A stretch of DNA of 64,000 nucleotides, from the NCBI RefSeq assembly GCF_007678455.1, contig NZ_VEEP01000011.1:124001-188000 (forward strand). Reading direction: 5' to 3'. This stretch comes from Cytobacillus oceanisediminis 2691 (GTDB lineage Bacteria > Bacillota > Bacilli > Bacillales > Cytobacillaceae). Each line of letters opens with the position of its first letter. Position 1 is the first letter of the stretch. Under the pieces are notes generated by a model. The model ran no database searches and was not told the DNA's origin. It was given only the letters and a program-made list of their open reading frames with translations. Below, one piece after another: positions 1,337 through 17,371 of this stretch. A program made the translations under genes and the position numbers.

Positions 1337-2164
1337 TTACATATTCAATTTTTTAATAACGATTTTTTCAATCATTTTCCACGGAAGAAGATTTTTTAAA
1401 AACAAGGTATTCTTGATGCCTTTACCAATTGGATATCTCAATTGCGGGGAGTTTGCGGATGCAATTCCAGAAACAAGCCTGGCAACATCCTGAGGATTCC
1501 CATAACTGGCTTCAGCGGTTTTTAGTTCTTTCATAATCGCTTCCATAGAGGATTCATATGGTGATTGGTCATGCATTGGAACTGCTTCAATGCTTTTCCA
1601 TATATCCGTTTTAAAGGAACCAGGTTCAATCAAAATTACATCGATTCCAAAAGGCTTTAACTCCAGCCTTAAGCTTTCACTGTATCCCTCCAGAGCATGT
1701 TTCGATGCTGCGTAGGCAGACAGGCCTGGGAATCCAAACCTTCCGCTGATGCTGCTCATATTTATGATTTTTCCATACCTTTGCTGACGCATAAAAGGGA
1801 GGACGGCCTGAGTGACAGCAATCACTCCAAAAAAATTCGTTTCAAATTGTTTTCGATATGTGTCCACCTCAAGTTCTTCTGAAAAGCCACCTTGTGCATA
1901 GCCGGCATTATTGACTAGCAGATCTACTGAATCCAGTGAATGCACGAACCTCTTGAATTCTTGGATTGATTCATCAATCGTAACATCCAACTGAAATAAT
2001 TGAATCTGATCTGTCACTTTTTCAGCCGCTGCAAGCTCCAACAAATGATCTTTCTTTTTTAGATTCCTCATTGTGGCAGTCACATGATAGCCTGATTTGG
2101 CCAGTTCAATTGCGATCAATTTTCCAAATCCGCTTGAGGAACCCGTAATAATTGCATGCTTCAT
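1337..2164 (-). CDS. SDR family NAD(P)-dependent oxidoreductase
   Basis: Classical short-chain dehydrogenase of 275 residues. Cofactor loop TGSSSGFG lies at residues 7-14, NNAG at 85-88, the catalytic serine in MSSIS near 137-140, and the YAASK catalytic pair Y151/K155. The basic residue in ATMRN after the second strand favours NADP(H), by inference. C-terminal extension beyond the Rossmann core carries a helix typical of the classical 270-280-residue subgroup. It stands alone, convergent with the transporter gene upstream. Substrate unknown. Confidence 0.88.
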   Translation of the reverse strand: MKHAIITGSSSGFGKLIAIELAKSGYHVTATMRNLKKKDHLLELAAAEKVTDQIQLFQLDVTIDESIQEFKRFVHSLDSVDLLVNNAGYAQGGFSEELEVDTYRKQFETNFFGVIAVTQAVLPFMRQQRYGKIINMSSISGRFGFPGLSAYAASKHALEGYSESLRLELKPFGIDVILIEPGSFKTDIWKSIEAVPMHDQSPYESSMEAIMKELKTAEASYGNPQDVARLVSGIASANSPQLRYPIGKGIKNTLFLKNLLPWKMIEKIVIKKLNM

Positions 2165-2276
2165 ATATTCTCACCCGCCAGGACAGCTTTTTATCTCATT
2201 CTACATTGATAAAGCTCAAGTTGCGATGTATCTTTACGGCCAGCATGGAAAAAATGAATTACTGTGGGTTTGAAGG

Positions 2277-2567
2277 ATGGTGAAGAAAAAAGTGACGAAG
2301 GAAGAGAGTTTAAAACTATTGGCTTTAATCGAATATATTTATCCGGTAGTGACAGTTAAGAGCGAAACAATTTTAGCTTGGATGTCTATTTGTGATTCTT
2401 TGAAATATAATTTCACATTTGAAAATTTGGTTAAACATATAAGGGTAAATCCGTATCCGCCAACTTTGACAGAAATGATTGATGGCACCGGAAATGATCG
2501 AACAAGTTTTGGCTGGGTGAAGGAATATTCGATAAGAGATCAAAAGCGGAATAAACCAACTACATAG
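2277..2567 (+). CDS. Small hypothetical protein, possibly helicase-loader-like
   Basis: A 96-residue protein with no clear paralogue in the window. The N-terminus is basic and the central part (VKHIRVNPYPPTLTEM) resembles the short phage replicative-helicase loader/inhibitor family (G40P loader type), where a helical N-terminal domain is followed by a YPPT motif. The likeness is by eye and weak. The start is uncertain: ATG at 2277 is followed at once by GTG at 2280, and the nearest purine-rich site (GAAGGA) is too close to both. No phage genes surround it. Confidence 0.5.
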   Translation: MVKKKVTKEESLKLLALIEYIYPVVTVKSETILAWMSICDSLKYNFTFENLVKHIRVNPYPPTLTEMIDGTGNDRTSFGWVKEYSIRDQKRNKPTT

Positions 2568-2652
2568 AAAAAATTATTAGTAAATGTTAGTACCAGATAA
2601 TAATCATAAATCCTTGATATTCCAACCTTTTTATTGTAAAAACAAAACGAAA

Positions 2653-2683
2653 CATGACATTTATCATATGTCATACATGACAC
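2653..2683 (+). promoter_or_regulatory. Candidate DesR operator upstream of des
   Basis: Three half-sites CATGACA, TGTCAT and ATGACA form overlapping dyads (TGTCAT-AC-ATGACA is palindromic). They lie about 45-75 bp upstream of the predicted transcription start of the desaturase gene, which matches the known position of phosphorylated DesR binding at B. subtilis des. Placement is seen; identity as DesR site is inferred. Confidence 0.7.
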
Positions 2684-2690
2684 CTGCTAC

Positions 2691-2719
2691 TGCACAAAAC
2701 CATTTCCCTTATTTATAAT
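2691..2719 (+). promoter_or_regulatory. Sigma-A promoter of des
   Basis: -35 TGCACA at 2691-2696 and -10 TATAAT at 2714-2719, spacer 17. The poor -35 box with a perfect -10 box is typical of an activator-dependent promoter. Confidence 0.65.
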
Positions 2720-2751
2720 TTAATTAACTAAGAAATCCGAAAGGGGAATTA

Positions 2752-3795
2752 TTGAACAAGATGACAACTAACAACGCAAAAGAACTTAGAAAACAGGTCG
2801 CCCCTTATGAAAATTCAAACACTAAAATGAGTATTATTCAAATAGTCAACACTGTCATTCCATTTTTGGCATTATGGTATTTTGCCTATCAAAGTCTGTC
2901 GATTTCCTATGGATTGACACTTGTGCTTGCGGCTGCTGCTGCTGGTTTCATGGTCAGGATCTTCATCATCTTCCATGACTGCACGCATCATTCGTTCTTC
3001 AAAAACCGTACTGCGAACAAAGTTGTCGGAACCCTCACCGGAGTACTGACTTTGTTTCCCTATAGCCAATGGGGCCATGACCATGCTGTCCACCATGCAA
3101 CCAGCAGCAATTTGGACAAACGCGGAACTGGCGACATCTGGGTGCTGACAGTCGATGAATATATGGCTGCTCCTGCGTGGCAGAAGCTTGCGTACAGATT
3201 GTACCGCAATCCATTCGTAATGTTTGTATTGGGGCCAATTTACATCGTTTTATTCAAGAACCGTTTTAACCGCAAAGGTGCCAGAACGAAGGAGCGCCTT
3301 AACACTTATTTGACAAATGTTTTGATTTTTGGAATTTCTGGCCTCCTGATTTGGGCAATTGGCTGGAAGGCATTCTTAATGGTAGAAGGGCCGATTTTCT
3401 TCATTGCCGGGATGTTTGGCATCTGGCTGTTCTATGTACAGCATACATTCGAAGATTCTTATTTTGAAGAGGATAAAGACTGGGAGTATGTAAAAGCTGC
3501 CGTGGAAGGAAGCTCATACTACAAGCTGCCAAAAGTATTGCAGTGGATCACTGGAAATATTGGCTACCACCACGTTCACCACTTAAGCCCTAGAGTCCCG
3601 AACTATAAGCTTGAAGAAGTTCATAATAATACGAAGCCATTGCAGAATGTGCCGACCATCACAATTTCAACCAGCCTGACTTCCTTGCGTTTCCGTCTTT
3701 GGGACGAACGAAAGAAGCAATTCATTAGCTTCAGGGAAATGAAAGCATTGCAGCAAAGCAATAAGTTGACGACTCAGACAAAACCGGAACTATAA
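2752..3795 (+). CDS. des: Phospholipid acyl desaturase Des (delta-5 type)
   Basis: Membrane-bound di-iron desaturase that puts double bonds into the acyl chains of existing membrane lipids after cold shock. The three histidine boxes are visible: HDCTHH at residues 75-80, HDHAVHH at 109-115 and HHVHH near 274. Length (347) is close to B. subtilis Des (352). Four or so membrane segments surround the boxes. Start: TTG at 2752 sits 4-5 bases after AAGGGGAA, but ATG at 2761 is also possible. The gene is directly followed by desK and desR and has a DesR-like operator, so a temperature/fluidity circuit is intact here. Confidence 0.93.
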   Translation: MNKMTTNNAKELRKQVAPYENSNTKMSIIQIVNTVIPFLALWYFAYQSLSISYGLTLVLAAAAAGFMVRIFIIFHDCTHHSFFKNRTANKVVGTLTGVLTLFPYSQWGHDHAVHHATSSNLDKRGTGDIWVLTVDEYMAAPAWQKLAYRLYRNPFVMFVLGPIYIVLFKNRFNRKGARTKERLNTYLTNVLIFGISGLLIWAIGWKAFLMVEGPIFFIAGMFGIWLFYVQHTFEDSYFEEDKDWEYVKAAVEGSSYYKLPKVLQWITGNIGYHHVHHLSPRVPNYKLEEVHNNTKPLQNVPTITISTSLTSLRFRLWDERKKQFISFREMKALQQSNKLTTQTKPEL

Positions 3796-3917: not shown

Positions 3918-5057
3918 ATGTTTAAAAGGTATTTCAATTCACTTAGAAGTACAGGAATTTCCCCATACATATGGACTATACTCGGTATTCTTCCCTTTTA
4001 CTTCATTTGGCAGATGCCAACTATGGCTGGGAAAGCGGCAGGAATCATCCTGACTCTGCTGTTTTTTCTCGTATACTGGCTCGCATTTGTCTCAAGAGGA
4101 TGGACAGTATACCTATGGACGTGTATCCTGATCGGTATTTCCATTGCATCTGCAAGTCTTTTCAGCTATGTTTATTTTGCATTTTTTATTGTTTATTTTA
4201 TTGGGAATATAAAAGACCGTATTCCGTTTCTAGTTTTATATTTCATTCACCTGGTAGGGACATCGATTGTCATCAATTTTGAAATCGTCCTCCAGGAAGA
4301 GTTCTTTATAAAACAGCTTCCTATCATTGTGATTGTGTGGATCAGTGTGATTCTGCTTCCTTTCAGCATTCATAACAAAAATGAAAGAGGAGAGCTCGAA
4401 GAAAAGCTTGAGGATGCAAATAAGCGAATTTCGGAACTTGTTAAGCTTGAAGAGCGTCAAAGGATCGCCAGGGATTTACATGATACTCTTGGCCAAAAGT
4501 TGTCATTAATCGGATTGAAAAGTGATTTAGCCCGCAAATTGATCAATAAAGATGCCGAATTGGCAAAAGAGGAATTAAAGGATGTTCAGCAGACGGCAAG
4601 GACTGCCCTGAATGAAGTAAGAAAAATGGTGGCAGAAATGAGAGGGATCCGCGTCCGTGACGAGCTCATCCACATCAAACAGATTTTAAAAGCAGCGGAA
4701 ATCAAGTTTGTCGGAAATGAAGAAGATTTTAATCTCAACAACGTATCTTTGCTTTCTGAAAATATCCTAAGCATGTGCCTTAAAGAAGCAGTTACGAATG
4801 TTGTTAAACATAGTTCAGCAACAGAATGCAGCGTTTCCATTCGGCAAACAGAAAATGAACTTGCTGCTGTAGTGAGCGATAATGGAGTCGGCAATATTAC
4901 GGAAGAGGACCTCTACAAGGGCAGCGGGCTACAGGGCATGAGGGAACGACTGGAATTTGTGAATGGCACACTTGATATTCTTTCAGATAACGGTACGAAT
5001 CTTAAAATTAAAATACCTAAAGTATTGAAGCAAACCGATAGGGAGGACCAGCTATGA
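3918..5057 (+). CDS. desK: Membrane-fluidity sensor histidine kinase DesK
   Basis: Two-component kinase that senses membrane thickness/order and controls DesR phosphorylation. The N-terminal 150 residues hold about five hydrophobic segments; a short linker coiled coil (about 155-180) leads to the HisKA_3 dimerisation domain with ARDLHDTLGQ, the phospho-acceptor being His188, the same number as in B. subtilis DesK. A HATPase_c domain follows with SDNGVG and the GSGLQGMRER lid motif. 379 residues. Its stop overlaps the desR start by four bases (ATGA), so the pair is translationally coupled. It sits downstream of des, as in known des loci. Confidence 0.93.
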   Translation: MFKRYFNSLRSTGISPYIWTILGILPFYFIWQMPTMAGKAAGIILTLLFFLVYWLAFVSRGWTVYLWTCILIGISIASASLFSYVYFAFFIVYFIGNIKDRIPFLVLYFIHLVGTSIVINFEIVLQEEFFIKQLPIIVIVWISVILLPFSIHNKNERGELEEKLEDANKRISELVKLEERQRIARDLHDTLGQKLSLIGLKSDLARKLINKDAELAKEELKDVQQTARTALNEVRKMVAEMRGIRVRDELIHIKQILKAAEIKFVGNEEDFNLNNVSLLSENILSMCLKEAVTNVVKHSSATECSVSIRQTENELAAVVSDNGVGNITEEDLYKGSGLQGMRERLEFVNGTLDILSDNGTNLKIKIPKVLKQTDREDQL

Positions 5058-5653
5058 TACGTATTGTCATTGCCGAGGACCAGCGCATGCTATTGGGGGC
5101 ATTGGGGTCTCTGCTGAGTCTTGAAGATGATATGGAAGTCGTTGGCAAAGCGAGCAACGGGGAGGAAGCAGTTGCACTGGCCAAAGAGATAAAACCGGAT
5201 GTATGTGTGATGGACATTGAAATGCCTGGAAAAACCGGACTTGAAGCGGCGGAAGAATTGAAAGGGCTGGGCTGCAAGATTATCATTTTAACCACGTTTG
5301 CCCGATCCGGGTATTTTCAGCGAGCGTTGAAAGCAGGTGTCAGCGGGTATTTATTGAAGGATAGTCCTTCAGAGGAACTGGCGAGCACAATCCGGAGTGT
5401 GATGGGAGGAAGACGAGTGTTTGCCCCTGAACTCATGGATGATGTATACAGTGAGGAAAATCCGCTGACCGAACGTGAGATGGAGGTCCTTGAACTTGTG
5501 GCCGATGGCAAAAACACAAAGGAAATTGCCGGACAGCTCAGCATTACAACAGGCACGGTCAGAAACTATATTTCCACAATCCTGGATAAACTTCAGGTTA
5601 CAAACAGGATAGAAGCCATTACCCAGTCAAAGGAAAAAGGCTGGTTTAAGTAA
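5054..5653 (+). CDS. desR: Response regulator DesR (NarL/LuxR type)
   Basis: Receiver domain (residues 1-120) with acidic pocket E8/D9, phospho-acceptor Asp54 in VMDIEMPG, and Lys in LLKDSPSEE. A LuxR-type helix-turn-helix occupies the C-terminus (LTEREMEVLEL ... TTGTVRNYIS). 199 residues, exactly the size of B. subtilis DesR. Activated by DesK to switch on des; its probable operator is seen at 2653-2683. Confidence 0.94.
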   Translation: MIRIVIAEDQRMLLGALGSLLSLEDDMEVVGKASNGEEAVALAKEIKPDVCVMDIEMPGKTGLEAAEELKGLGCKIIILTTFARSGYFQRALKAGVSGYLLKDSPSEELASTIRSVMGGRRVFAPELMDDVYSEENPLTEREMEVLELVADGKNTKEIAGQLSITTGTVRNYISTILDKLQVTNRIEAITQSKEKGWFK

Positions 5654-15664: not shown

Positions 15665-15859
15665 TTAATCTCTTGAAGAATCGTTAAATGCGCGTGATAC
15701 GTCCTCTTTTAAATCCCCGGCGGTTTCTTTCAATTTGCCTTTTCCTTTATCAAGACGGCCTTCCGCTTCCATGGATTCATTGTTGGTCACCTTGCCAAAT
15801 TGCTTCTTGGCTTCACCTTTTACCTGATCGAAAGCGCCTTTTGTTTGTTCGTCATTCAT
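15665..15859 (-). CDS. CsbD family stress protein
   Basis: 64-residue hydrophilic protein with the CsbD pattern: AFDQVKGEAKKQFGKVTNNESMEAEGRLDKGKGKLKETAGDLKED in pieces of repeated K-G-x-x-K. CsbD-type proteins are general stress proteins of unknown action. AAAGGAGG lies nine bases before ATG and a sigma-B promoter is visible upstream, agreeing with the known sigma-B control of csbD in B. subtilis. Confidence 0.92.
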   Translation of the reverse strand: MNDEQTKGAFDQVKGEAKKQFGKVTNNESMEAEGRLDKGKGKLKETAGDLKEDVSRAFNDSSRD

Positions 15860-16040: not shown

Positions 16041-16111
16041 AGTAAAAAAATTACTTTAGAGAGTAAGTGATCGTTGCTTTATAGAGTAAAAATGATTACT
16101 ATTAAAAGTAA
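16041..16111. promoter_or_regulatory. Phased AGTAA/TTACT half-site cluster upstream of the HTH/F1-beta gene
   Basis: Six half-sites: AGTAA 16041, TTACT 16051, AGTAA 16062, then AGTAA 16085, TTACT 16096, AGTAA 16107. They form two triplets 44 bp apart with internal steps of 10-11 bp, one helical turn. The second triplet runs into the ribosome site. Looks like an autoregulatory operator; the binder is inferred. Confidence 0.6.
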
Positions 16112-16124
16112 GGAGGAGGAAGCG

Positions 16125-17174
16125 ATGGAAAAACTTAGATTGAATGTGGCTTTACTGAGGAAGCGAGTACCTAATCTTACTACCGCAGCAAAATCTGTCG
16201 GACTAAGACCTGCTACTGTTTCAAACCTATCTACGGGTAAAATTCCCGTTGGCAGGGCGGAGGTACGTACAATTGTGGCACTGGCGGAGCTTGCTGGCTG
16301 CTCCCTGGATGAACTTATTTTAAGAGGGGAGAGTGTGGAAATGATCGAAACTGGTATTAAAATCTTAGACTTATTTGCTCCAATTGCAAAAGGCGGGACA
16401 GTTGGCCTGGTCGCACGGCCGGGTATGGGCCAATTAGTAGTATTGGCTGAAATGCTGCACAGATTAAAAATGGAAGAGTATAAGACCATTCTTCTCAATC
16501 CAAAGGACAACCATCCTGAAATGAACGACATCCTTGATGATGTTGACTTTGTGGCTAATAGTATAGAAGAGACTTTTAACATGATGATTTCTGCAGGGGT
16601 TGACAAGAAATTTGTACTTACAGCTGATCGTGCATATGTTTTATCAGGAGAGATGTACACCCTGCAAGAAATGCTTGATGATAAAGACATGACAGAAGTA
16701 ACAACATTCTTGCTCGATTTAAAAGGAGAAGCAGTGGATGATGATCTTCCATATGGACCGCTCGATACTTTGTGGCAATTCGATGCTGATTTGGCTGCAA
16801 GACATAAATATCCGGCCGTAAATCCTATCTACTCTACATCTTCCATCCTTGAGGGTTCTTATCTAGACCCCGTTCACCATGGCGTACAGCAAAAAGCACA
16901 AAAATTACTCCGCCGATATCGGGAGTTGCGTTCGATCGTTACGGTTCACGGTGTCGGCCGTCTGCCGGAATCCGAACTTCAAGTCTACAAGCAAGGTGAA
17001 AAACTGGAGGCCTATTTGACTCAGCCCTTTTATGTTGCCGAACCTTATACTGGGAAAAAAGGTGTAACAGTAGGATTAAAAGAAACTTTATCTGACGTGA
17101 AAAAAATTCTTGAAAGCTCTCCAAGTGAGTTTAATGCAGAAGACCTCCAATTTATTGGTAAAATCGAATCTTGA
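16125..17174 (+). CDS. Helix-turn-helix protein fused to a degenerate F1-ATPase beta-like core
   Basis: 349 residues from ATG 16125, nine bases after AGGAGG. Residues 1-66 form an XRE/Cro-like helix-turn-helix (LTTAAKSVGLRPATVSNLSTG). From about 73 the protein aligns with the ATP synthase beta catalytic domain: ETGIKILDLFAPIAKGG (beta: ETGIKVVDLLAPY-KGG), a ruined P-loop at 91-104 where GGAGVGKT has become ARPGMGQL, LAARHKYPAVNPIYSTSSIL near 213-232, and the complete C-terminal helical domain (GVQQKAQKLLRRYRELRSI ... YLTQPFYVAEPYTGKKG) to the end. The N-terminal beta-barrel and part of the middle are lost. The Walker lysine is absent, so hydrolysis is unlikely, though the aromatic adenine-site segment PFYVAEPYTG is kept. 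Likely a nucleotide-responsive or structural DNA-binding protein; function unproven. Confidence 0.88.
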   Translation: MEKLRLNVALLRKRVPNLTTAAKSVGLRPATVSNLSTGKIPVGRAEVRTIVALAELAGCSLDELILRGESVEMIETGIKILDLFAPIAKGGTVGLVARPGMGQLVVLAEMLHRLKMEEYKTILLNPKDNHPEMNDILDDVDFVANSIEETFNMMISAGVDKKFVLTADRAYVLSGEMYTLQEMLDDKDMTEVTTFLLDLKGEAVDDDLPYGPLDTLWQFDADLAARHKYPAVNPIYSTSSILEGSYLDPVHHGVQQKAQKLLRRYRELRSIVTVHGVGRLPESELQVYKQGEKLEAYLTQPFYVAEPYTGKKGVTVGLKETLSDVKKILESSPSEFNAEDLQFIGKIES

Positions 17175-17187
17175 TCAGATAATTGAG

Positions 17188-17216
17188 AAAAGCCCGAGGT
17201 GCCTAGGGCTTTTTAT
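17188..17216 (+). terminator. Terminator after the HTH/F1-beta gene
   Basis: AAAAGCCC / GGGCTTTT stem with T-run. Confidence 0.85.
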
Positions 17217-17278
17217 CGTTCACCAGCTGAATATTCATGCTTAACATGGATTTGTATGTTTTGAAGACGGGGATTGCA

Positions 17279-17371
17279 ATGAAGAATTTGCGCCATGTAT
17301 TGGTCAATAATTCCATCCATTTGTTGATGGTTTTTTGGGCTGCACTGCTGAAAAAATGGATTTATCGTTGA
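17279..17371 (+). CDS. Possible 30-aa membrane micro-protein
   Basis: ATG at 17279 lies seven bases after ACGGGGA; 30 codons encode a peptide with a hydrophobic core (NSIHLLMVFWAALLKK) ending in KKWIYR. Size and composition fit a single-pass membrane micropeptide, but the evidence is only one ribosome site and one hydrophobic run. Terminator-like stems lie on both sides. Confidence 0.22.
   Translation: MKNLRHVLVNNSIHLLMVFWAALLKKWIYR

Follow-up and report, generated by a model that had tools for sequence, protein, structure and literature searches.

What does the catalytic subunit of a rotary motor do once it has been joined to a DNA-binding domain? The question is raised by a gene of Cytobacillus oceanisediminis 2691, which lies within a stretch of 64,000 nucleotides that was analysed as a whole and is called the window here. 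A first interpretation, made from the letters of the window and referred to below as the sequence-only reading, held that a rotary-ATPase fold has been reused in a putative DNA-binding protein. Profile searches, predicted folds, a conserved fusion and a predicted tandem operator now support that view well. The gene probably encodes an autoregulatory one-component regulator in which a catalytically dead F1-beta core would serve as sensor or oligomerisation domain, with DNA binding, repression and a ligand all predicted.

Identity, descent and distribution of the fused gene

The protein, 349 aa in length, is read from one open frame on the forward strand, from an ATG at 16125 to a stop that ends at 17174. 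The main parts of the gene are:

16112-16119, forward strand: ribosome binding site GGAGGAGG (by eye)
16125-17174, forward strand: complete gene, helix-turn-helix (HTH) fused to a degenerate F1-ATPase beta core, 349 aa (frame and profile searches)
16125-16322, forward strand: N-terminal Cro/C1-type HTH, residues 1-66 (HTH_26 profile, below its cut-off for this copy, and conservation)
16332-17171, forward strand: F1-beta-derived domain, residues 70-349, without the N-terminal barrel (profile, fold and alignment)

In NCBIfam the whole protein matches atpD best (TIGR01039, 3.6e-36); the mycoplasma F1-like betas, the alternate F1F0 beta, V-type A, FliI and Rho come after it. With 124.9 bits against a cut-off of 462.85, the protein is classed as a relative and not as an atpD. 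Two Pfam families are matched above their cut-offs, ATP-synt_ab (8.2e-8, residues 77-139) and ATP-synt_VA_C (4.5e-6, residues 247-313). Beta subunits in the PDB are matched down to 7.4e-31, and a profile of residues 70-349 alone reaches 3.7e-46. Other P-loop families (FliI, Rho) were discarded as the identity since they score more weakly than F1 beta in the NCBIfam profile search, just as the sequence-only reading had expected of residues 70-349.

The HTH_26 profile of Pfam matches the window protein at 0.013, below its curated cut-off, and 26 of the 44 rows of alignment A1 at E <=0.01 (best 2.1e-4); both ATP-synthase families are matched by all 44 rows. Alignment A1 consists of the window protein and 43 relatives, the near copies L030, L031 and L034 and the broken frame of L067 being left out, and the rows of alignments A2 (34 rows) and A3 (19 rows) were chosen for spread. 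A profile of the HTH alone found no significant relative in the PDB, the best match being the HigA antitoxin at E 0.74. The recognition stretch LRPATVSNLxTGK is nearly invariant among members, with R28, A30, T31, V32, S33, L35, G38 and K39 present in 70/70 (residue counts here and below are from 74 rows, 70 of them distinct, window protein included, with L118, partial copies and exact duplicates not counted).

Could two adjacent genes have been misread as one? The fused frame is free of stops in all 44 rows of A1, so the HTH and F1-beta parts are not separate genes. The single frame, with its F1-beta matches and a weak sequence similarity to HTH domains, bears out the original claim that an HTH domain runs into an F1-beta segment, and a search of other genomes for the same architecture, which had been proposed as a check, found that the fusion recurs across many genera. 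On the reverse strand, one frame that was read contains many stops, and a second is open for 203 aa (16079-16690) with blast matches in 34 of the 47 loci compared; the latter is taken as the shadow of a conserved coding strand.

An AlphaFold model of the full-length protein, made with 44 sequences, has a mean pLDDT of 84.5 and a pTM of 0.73. Foldseek listed 50 PDB matches for it, all of them F1- or G1-ATPase entries (TM by query 0.55-0.64), the best-ranked having a probability of 1.00 and a TM by query length of 0.60. When residues 70-349 were modelled alone (mean pLDDT 75.9, with a low-confidence stretch at residues 137-176 of that model), the 50 matches listed were again all F1/G1-ATPase (TM by query 0.63-0.72); the comparison with chain 6n2z_F of PS3 ATP synthase gave E 1.8e-15, probability 1.00, TM by query 0.71 and rmsd 5.7. 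Structure prediction of this segment as a monomer, another check suggested at the outset, therefore returned F1/G1-ATPase folds, and the model indicates that the nucleotide-binding and C-terminal domain fold of F1 beta is present in residues 70-349.

In a tree with AtpA as outgroup, all members of the HTH–F1-beta family group together (bipartition support 100) and separately from the Bacillota AtpD that were sampled, to which they are sister (support 98). The sample comprised nine AtpD and eight AtpA, all from Bacillota, and no FliI rows; the re-rooted print of the tree shows 37 at the family node, which is taken as an effect of re-rooting. Relatives were found in 15 of 21 genomes of the genus, 62 of 193 of the family (a few partial), and 19 of 398 of the class (two partial). 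Of 299 genomes that sample the phylum, 2 gave a match, namely the window's own and one outside the class; the count at each rank includes the window genome, and that for the family counts the genus again. Named relatives in the 47 loci include Mesobacillus, Fredinandcohnia, Gottfriedia, Halobacillus, Thalassobacillus, Evansella, Paenibacillus and Cohnella. By protein identity and by synteny with L022 and L024, the window itself is placed within Mesobacillus or beside it. Judged from these matches, the family is coherent and widespread, though patchy, in the Bacilli.

Selection on the fusion gene is purifying, to judge by dN/dS values of 0.12 and 0.07 against the two relatives, of nine compared, for which dS was computable (1.46 in the second). 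Broken copies do occur: two frames in genome G010 (L019/L020), several pieces in L067, a second copy with stops in frame in G162, and, in L115, a headless, stop-preceded remnant that has neither an HTH nor a strong operator. Such copies, along with the lack of a match in 131/193 family and 379/398 class genomes, might be taken to mean that the fusion is decaying and has no function. It is difficult to credit this explanation, however, given 70 distinct members with invariant new motifs, a dN/dS of about 0.1 and conserved operators; purifying selection and the new motifs likewise contradict a decayed pseudogene.

Mobile elements and defence were also considered as sources or roles. Matches were found in 108 plasmid records, and among the 20 listed one (H1, a Paenibacillus megaplasmid) covers the HTH; matches in 19 phage records never start before residue 57, and the identities listed are 25-32%, as for real AtpD. 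A phage or plasmid origin was rejected on these grounds, as was a defence role, since no family of PADLOC-DB (anti-phage defence) was matched at E <=0.1. One annotated member, on a plasmid of Paenibacillus cellulositrophicus, is labelled 'hypothetical protein'.

The altered nucleotide site

What is left of the ATPase site? Members of the family were aligned with nine real AtpD, and the segments of interest in the window protein are:

16404-16451, forward strand: rebuilt P-loop segment GLVARPGMGQLVVLAE, residues 94-109, in which the Walker A Lys is Gln103 (residue counts)
16611-16631, forward strand: Walker B equivalent FVLTADR, Asp168 kept in 70/70 (alignment and residue counts)
16716-16763, forward strand: family-specific motif D198-G201-P209-GPL211-213, at the gamma-facing loop of beta (alignment and residue counts)
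16809-16844, forward strand: YPAVNPIYSTSS, corresponding to the adenine-stacking Tyr segment of beta (alignment and residue counts)
17022-17054, forward strand: QPFYVAEPYTG, corresponding to the adenine-pocket Phe segment of beta (alignment and residue counts)

The sequence-only reading had described a P-loop broken to ARPGMGQL in place of GGAGVGKT and an N-terminal barrel that is gone, and the alignment shows both statements to be correct. The position of the Walker A Lys is occupied by Gln in 70/70 members, in contrast to Lys in 9/9 AtpD, and the Thr that follows is replaced by Leu in 66/70. Within the new motif, A97, G102 and Q103 are each found in 70/70 distinct members, M101 in 69/70 and R98 in 68/70. 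The middle of the beta core has also been cut, with about 13 residues missing before Walker B and about 24 after it, and the GERTREGND segment that holds the catalytic glutamate is unrecognisable. Considering these changes to the site, ATP hydrolysis as in F1 has very probably been lost.

Other parts of the site have been kept or replaced by something equally constant. The family-specific motif, whose residues D198, G201, P209, G211, P212 and L213 are each present in 70/70, stands where F1 beta has its gamma-facing loop. Residue 229 is Tyr in 54/70 members and Phe in 16/70, and in the QPFYVAEPYTG segment Q300 and A305 occur in 70/70, E306 in 69/70 and F302 in 67/70; these two segments correspond to the adenine-contacting pocket positions of F1 beta. 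The former P-loop is not random debris, and the pattern of conservation suggests that the nucleotide pocket was rebuilt rather than abandoned.

The sequence-only reading had suggested a sensor of nucleotide level or of oligomeric state; with the phosphate end rebuilt and the adenine end kept, a sensor of nucleotide level becomes one of several possible readings of the ligand. The old site might still bind ATP/ADP or an adenine-containing signal and so couple the energy state to transcription, for which an aromatic residue (Tyr or Phe) at 229, Q300, A305 and Asp168, all at 70/70, and F302, at 67/70, would argue. This proposal is possible, though rather doubtful: the changed Walker A Lys and Thr, taken with the unrecognisable GERTREGND segment, make triphosphate and Mg binding as in F1 unlikely, and an amide-hydrolase-family operon partner in several lineages (see below) suggests a metabolite signal instead.

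Alternatively, the target of the F1-beta part might be the real ATP synthase, whose alpha3-beta3 assembly it could enter or poison, for example, in the manner of a decoy, while the HTH serves for autoregulation only. In favour of this, the beta core is well preserved towards its C-terminal end, and the genome also has an ordinary AtpD. The N-terminal barrel of F1 beta, however, forms the crown of the F1 ring, and it is absent here; with the segments near Walker B deleted and the gamma-facing loop replaced as well, a decoy is very improbable.

Tandem palindromes and the acetamidase-family operon partner

The evidence that bears on the DNA-binding half of the protein comes from the region upstream of the gene. 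The features there, and one downstream, are:

16051-16066, no strand assigned: predicted operator site 1 TTACTTTAGAGAGTAA, 10/10 consensus positions (sequence pattern)
16074-16089, no strand assigned: predicted operator site 2 TTGCTTTATAGAGTAA, 9/10 consensus positions (sequence pattern)
16096-16111, no strand assigned: predicted operator site 3 TTACTATTAAAAGTAA, 10/10 consensus positions (sequence pattern)
16074-16102, forward strand: possible promoter, with TTGCTT and TACTAT separated by 17 nt and lying within operator sites 2 and 3 (by eye)
17188-17214, forward strand: terminator-like inverted repeat AAAAGCCC/GGGCTTTT around a 10-nt loop, followed by a T run (by eye)

The promoter of the window gene carries three tandem TTACT-N6-AGTAA palindromes spaced 22-23 bp apart (23, then 22), and this conserved array falls inside 16041-16111, the region in which DNA binding had originally been proposed. 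The possible promoter hexamers match the consensus at 3/6 and 4/6 positions. Since a mechanical consensus promoter scan did not list TTGCTT-17-TACTAT, the repression reading draws on the overlap with sites 2 and 3 as seen by eye. The 10-nt loop of the terminator-like repeat, for its part, exceeds the length that the scan allows.

Is the array a property of the family? Under a looser rule, chains of 0, 1, 2, 3 and 4 sites were found in 1, 7, 16, 31 and 17 of 72 upstreams, compared with 9.0, 56.2, 6.6, 0.2 and none in first-order Markov controls; chains of two to four sites are thus present in 64/72, against a control mean of 6.8/72, and 8/72 have no chain of two or more. Among 57 distinct upstreams, at least one, two and three sites scoring 8/10 or better were found in 53, 48 and 31 (15.9, 3.1 and 0.4 in the controls), and neighbouring sites spaced 20-24 bp formed 70 pairs where 0.24 were expected. 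The set of 72 omits L109 (the L059 locus), L118 (which repeats the window) and L115-L117, which are partial, and includes L001 and L006, which come from the same species. Loci L028, L036, L038 and L067 are represented in it by the upstream of the operon rather than by the gene's own; L103, whose own upstream is siteless, was scored 0, and its operon promoter (L222) has one 10/10 site and one 7/10 site by eye.

Tandem arrays are nearly restricted to the HTH–F1-beta gene and the operons that contain it. In genome-wide searches, where overlapping pairs of one array were counted apart, the strict tandem pattern had 17 matches in 11 of the 21 genus genomes, 17/17 of them at this gene; it was absent from 4 of the 15 gene-bearing genomes and gave no match in the 6 gene-less ones (two of them <90% complete), and its reversed control gave 1 match in the 21. 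A relaxed pattern, applied to 58 gene-bearing genomes outside the genus, had 33 matches in 21 genomes, of which 31 lie at a full-length copy, 1 beside the decayed second copy of G162 and 1 elsewhere (in G178), so that 32/33 are at an HTH–F1-beta gene; 37/58 genomes lacked it, and the reversed control gave 0 matches. Single sites do not exceed what chance would give (in seven genomes they had 19 matches, the reversed control 37), and only tandem arrays were used for that reason; a full palindrome at 2652615 in G010 lies inside a GGDEF frame and was dismissed as chance. A palindromic operator is accordingly a predicted feature of the regulator's own promoter, and the arrays lend strong independent support to the DNA-binding half of the sequence-only reading.

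The one array away from a regulator gene, that of G178 (L181, 1501-1538), lies directly 5' of a gene for an M3-family oligoendopeptidase (1607-3037; TIGR02289, 2.6e-132 on a 477-aa fragment), and a further 9/10 site can be seen by eye in the same stretch.

In 7/47 loci, a gene of the acetamidase/formamidase family is found within 4.5 kb of the regulator, on the same strand and either adjacent or one gene away. It immediately follows the regulator gene in L059, where it overlaps the stop, and in L060 and L065, where it begins within 20 nt; in L036 and L067 it immediately precedes the regulator gene. It also lies upstream in L028 and L038, but there an alpha/beta hydrolase gene separates the two, its frame being in two pieces in L038; genome G527 also has the order acetamidase, alpha/beta hydrolase, regulator. 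Five of the seven (L059, L065, L028, L036 and L060) pass Pfam FmdA_AmdA, and the calls for L038 and L067 are made from a blast cluster. In five acetamidase-first operons (L028, L036, L038, L067 and L222), the sites precede the acetamidase gene, the first of the operon, whereas no site of at least 8/10 precedes the HTH gene itself in L028, L036, L038 and L222, and no tandem pair does so in L067. The array therefore follows the promoter. This layout is the strongest sign that the sites would belong to the HTH–F1-beta regulator and that the acetamidase would be one of its targets.

Could the protein then be a local switch for the breakdown of small amides (or esters, or peptides), sensing the amide or its product, with solitary copies being relics or acting on a few scattered genes? 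The acetamidase-family gene is close by in both orders in the seven loci and in G527, an alpha/beta hydrolase gene adjoins the regulator in L028, L038, L058 and L222, and the only extra tandem array found is that before the oligoendopeptidase gene. Nevertheless, 40/47 loci have no acetamidase within 4.5 kb (a few contigs end sooner), and the unlinked acetamidase genes that were scanned have no operator: among 28 further acetamidase loci in gene-bearing genomes, none has an array before the acetamidase gene, although in one of the 28, L217, where the acetamidase gene is linked, the sequence stops short of the promoter. Low-scoring site pairs beyond the matched stretch in L204 and L213 look like chance, and regulation of unlinked acetamidases found no support. 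A switch for amide breakdown is best regarded as a tentative but reasonable candidate.

Considering that most loci have no acetamidase nearby, the candidate target of the window copy is its own gene alone; this copy appears to stand alone, with the terminator-like repeat behind it. A conserved gene neighbourhood was looked for and rejected, since the window neighbours, apart from common signalling families, have close matches only in four same-genus loci (L021-L024). A LuxR-type response regulator (5054-5650, forward strand) is 82-84% identical in six Gottfriedia-like loci (L039, L041, L044-L046 and L048) and has weaker matches in ten others; when frames near the regulator in the 47 loci were grouped by single linkage, 21 loci had GGDEF-linked frames and 19 had frames of response regulators, both being large families. 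A gene for a CsbD-like stress protein (15668-15859, reverse strand; Pfam CsbD, 6.3e-18) lies just upstream of the operator region. Loci L021-L024 encode a membrane-like protein of 264-295 aa downstream of the regulator (the L022 copy without a Pfam match), and a 41-residue frame at 17246-17371 of the window seems by eye to be its end, so the rest of that protein appears to have been lost here. The locus in L021 (JAGGQZ010000020.1) is syntenic with the window, at 93% protein identity, and the record title 'Chryseobacterium sp. ISL-80' therefore looks wrong.

The proposed switch and its nearest known systems

How might the autoregulatory one-component regulator work? The HTH would bind the palindrome TTACT-N6-AGTAA as a dimer, the HTH–F1-beta protein itself being the presumed occupant of the arrays. 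Spaced at 22-23 bp across the promoter, the tandem sites would be filled cooperatively and along one face of the helix (about two turns for 22 bp), with self-association and the cooperativity itself mediated by the F1-beta domain, and the filled sites would shut off the regulator's own gene or, in several lineages, an operon that includes the acetamidase/formamidase-family enzyme. The C-terminal half, which would no longer hydrolyse ATP and has apparently lost some of the parts that meet the rotor, may sense a small ligand in the former nucleotide cleft, which retains its aromatic adenine pocket but has a fixed new motif in place of the phosphate-binding loop. An adenine-type molecule would fit the kept pocket and an amide metabolite would fit the operon partner, either choice being a guess. 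What the sequences show is the architecture, its conservation, the dead P-loop and operator-like arrays nearly confined to this gene and its operons; occupancy of the arrays by this protein, repression rather than activation, the loss of hydrolysis, the cooperativity and the ligand, its existence included, are what we infer.

A bolder version can be imagined, in which F1-beta cores form a six-membered homo-ring, as in F1, whose six HTHs clamp three tandem palindromes on one side of the promoter, and a ligand bound at the former catalytic sites opens or twists the ring and thereby frees the promoter. Three sites are the commonest array length (31/72), and three palindromes make six half-sites, the subunit number of the F1 ring, a coincidence that is suggestive only. 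The homo-ring fits these modal arrays, but arrays of two and four sites (16 and 17 of 72) do not demand it, and we consider it unlikely. If true, the conformational machinery of a rotary motor would have become a gene switch.

The known protein closest in descent is the beta subunit of F1F0 ATP synthase (AtpD, TIGR01039), to which the window protein is homologous over residues 70-349, its family being a sister clade to the 9 AtpD sampled. It differs in having an HTH in place of the N-terminal barrel, in lacking the Walker A Lys and the catalytic Glu segment, and in two deletions near Walker B. In its putative N-terminal HTH and in the predicted palindromic operators at its own promoter it resembles the Cro/C1 (XRE) one-component regulators (HTH_26/HTH_31), from which it is set apart by a sensor domain that would be an F1-beta core; we know of no described XRE regulator with such a domain. 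Enzyme folds have often been taken over as sensors by one-component regulators; none of these, to our knowledge, uses the catalytic subunit of the rotary ATP synthase.

MocR/GabR and similar regulators likewise join an HTH to a former enzyme fold used as a sensor; there the fold of origin is an aminotransferase, here a rotary ATPase. Mycoplasma F1-like ATPases (the G1-ATPase MMOB1670 and the MSC_0618 beta) are also paralogues of rotary-ATPase beta put to another use, and are the nearest described re-uses of F1 beta among the open PMC papers listed. The region of residues 70-349 matches their betas (in NCBIfam, and PDB 9io5 both by profile and by Foldseek). They are described as ATPases with other roles, whereas the window protein combines a dead P-loop with an HTH. 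A search of open PMC literature gave no description of an HTH–F1-beta protein among the matches listed.

What is new here is the conserved tandem TTACT-N6-AGTAA arrays predicted to act before the gene and the putative operon link to the acetamidase family. A probable role can be offered for proteins such as the one annotated 'hypothetical protein'. With an operator predicted, a partner gene in the operons of some lineages and a few residues marked out for mutation, the family makes it possible to test directly what such a motor subunit senses when it no longer turns.
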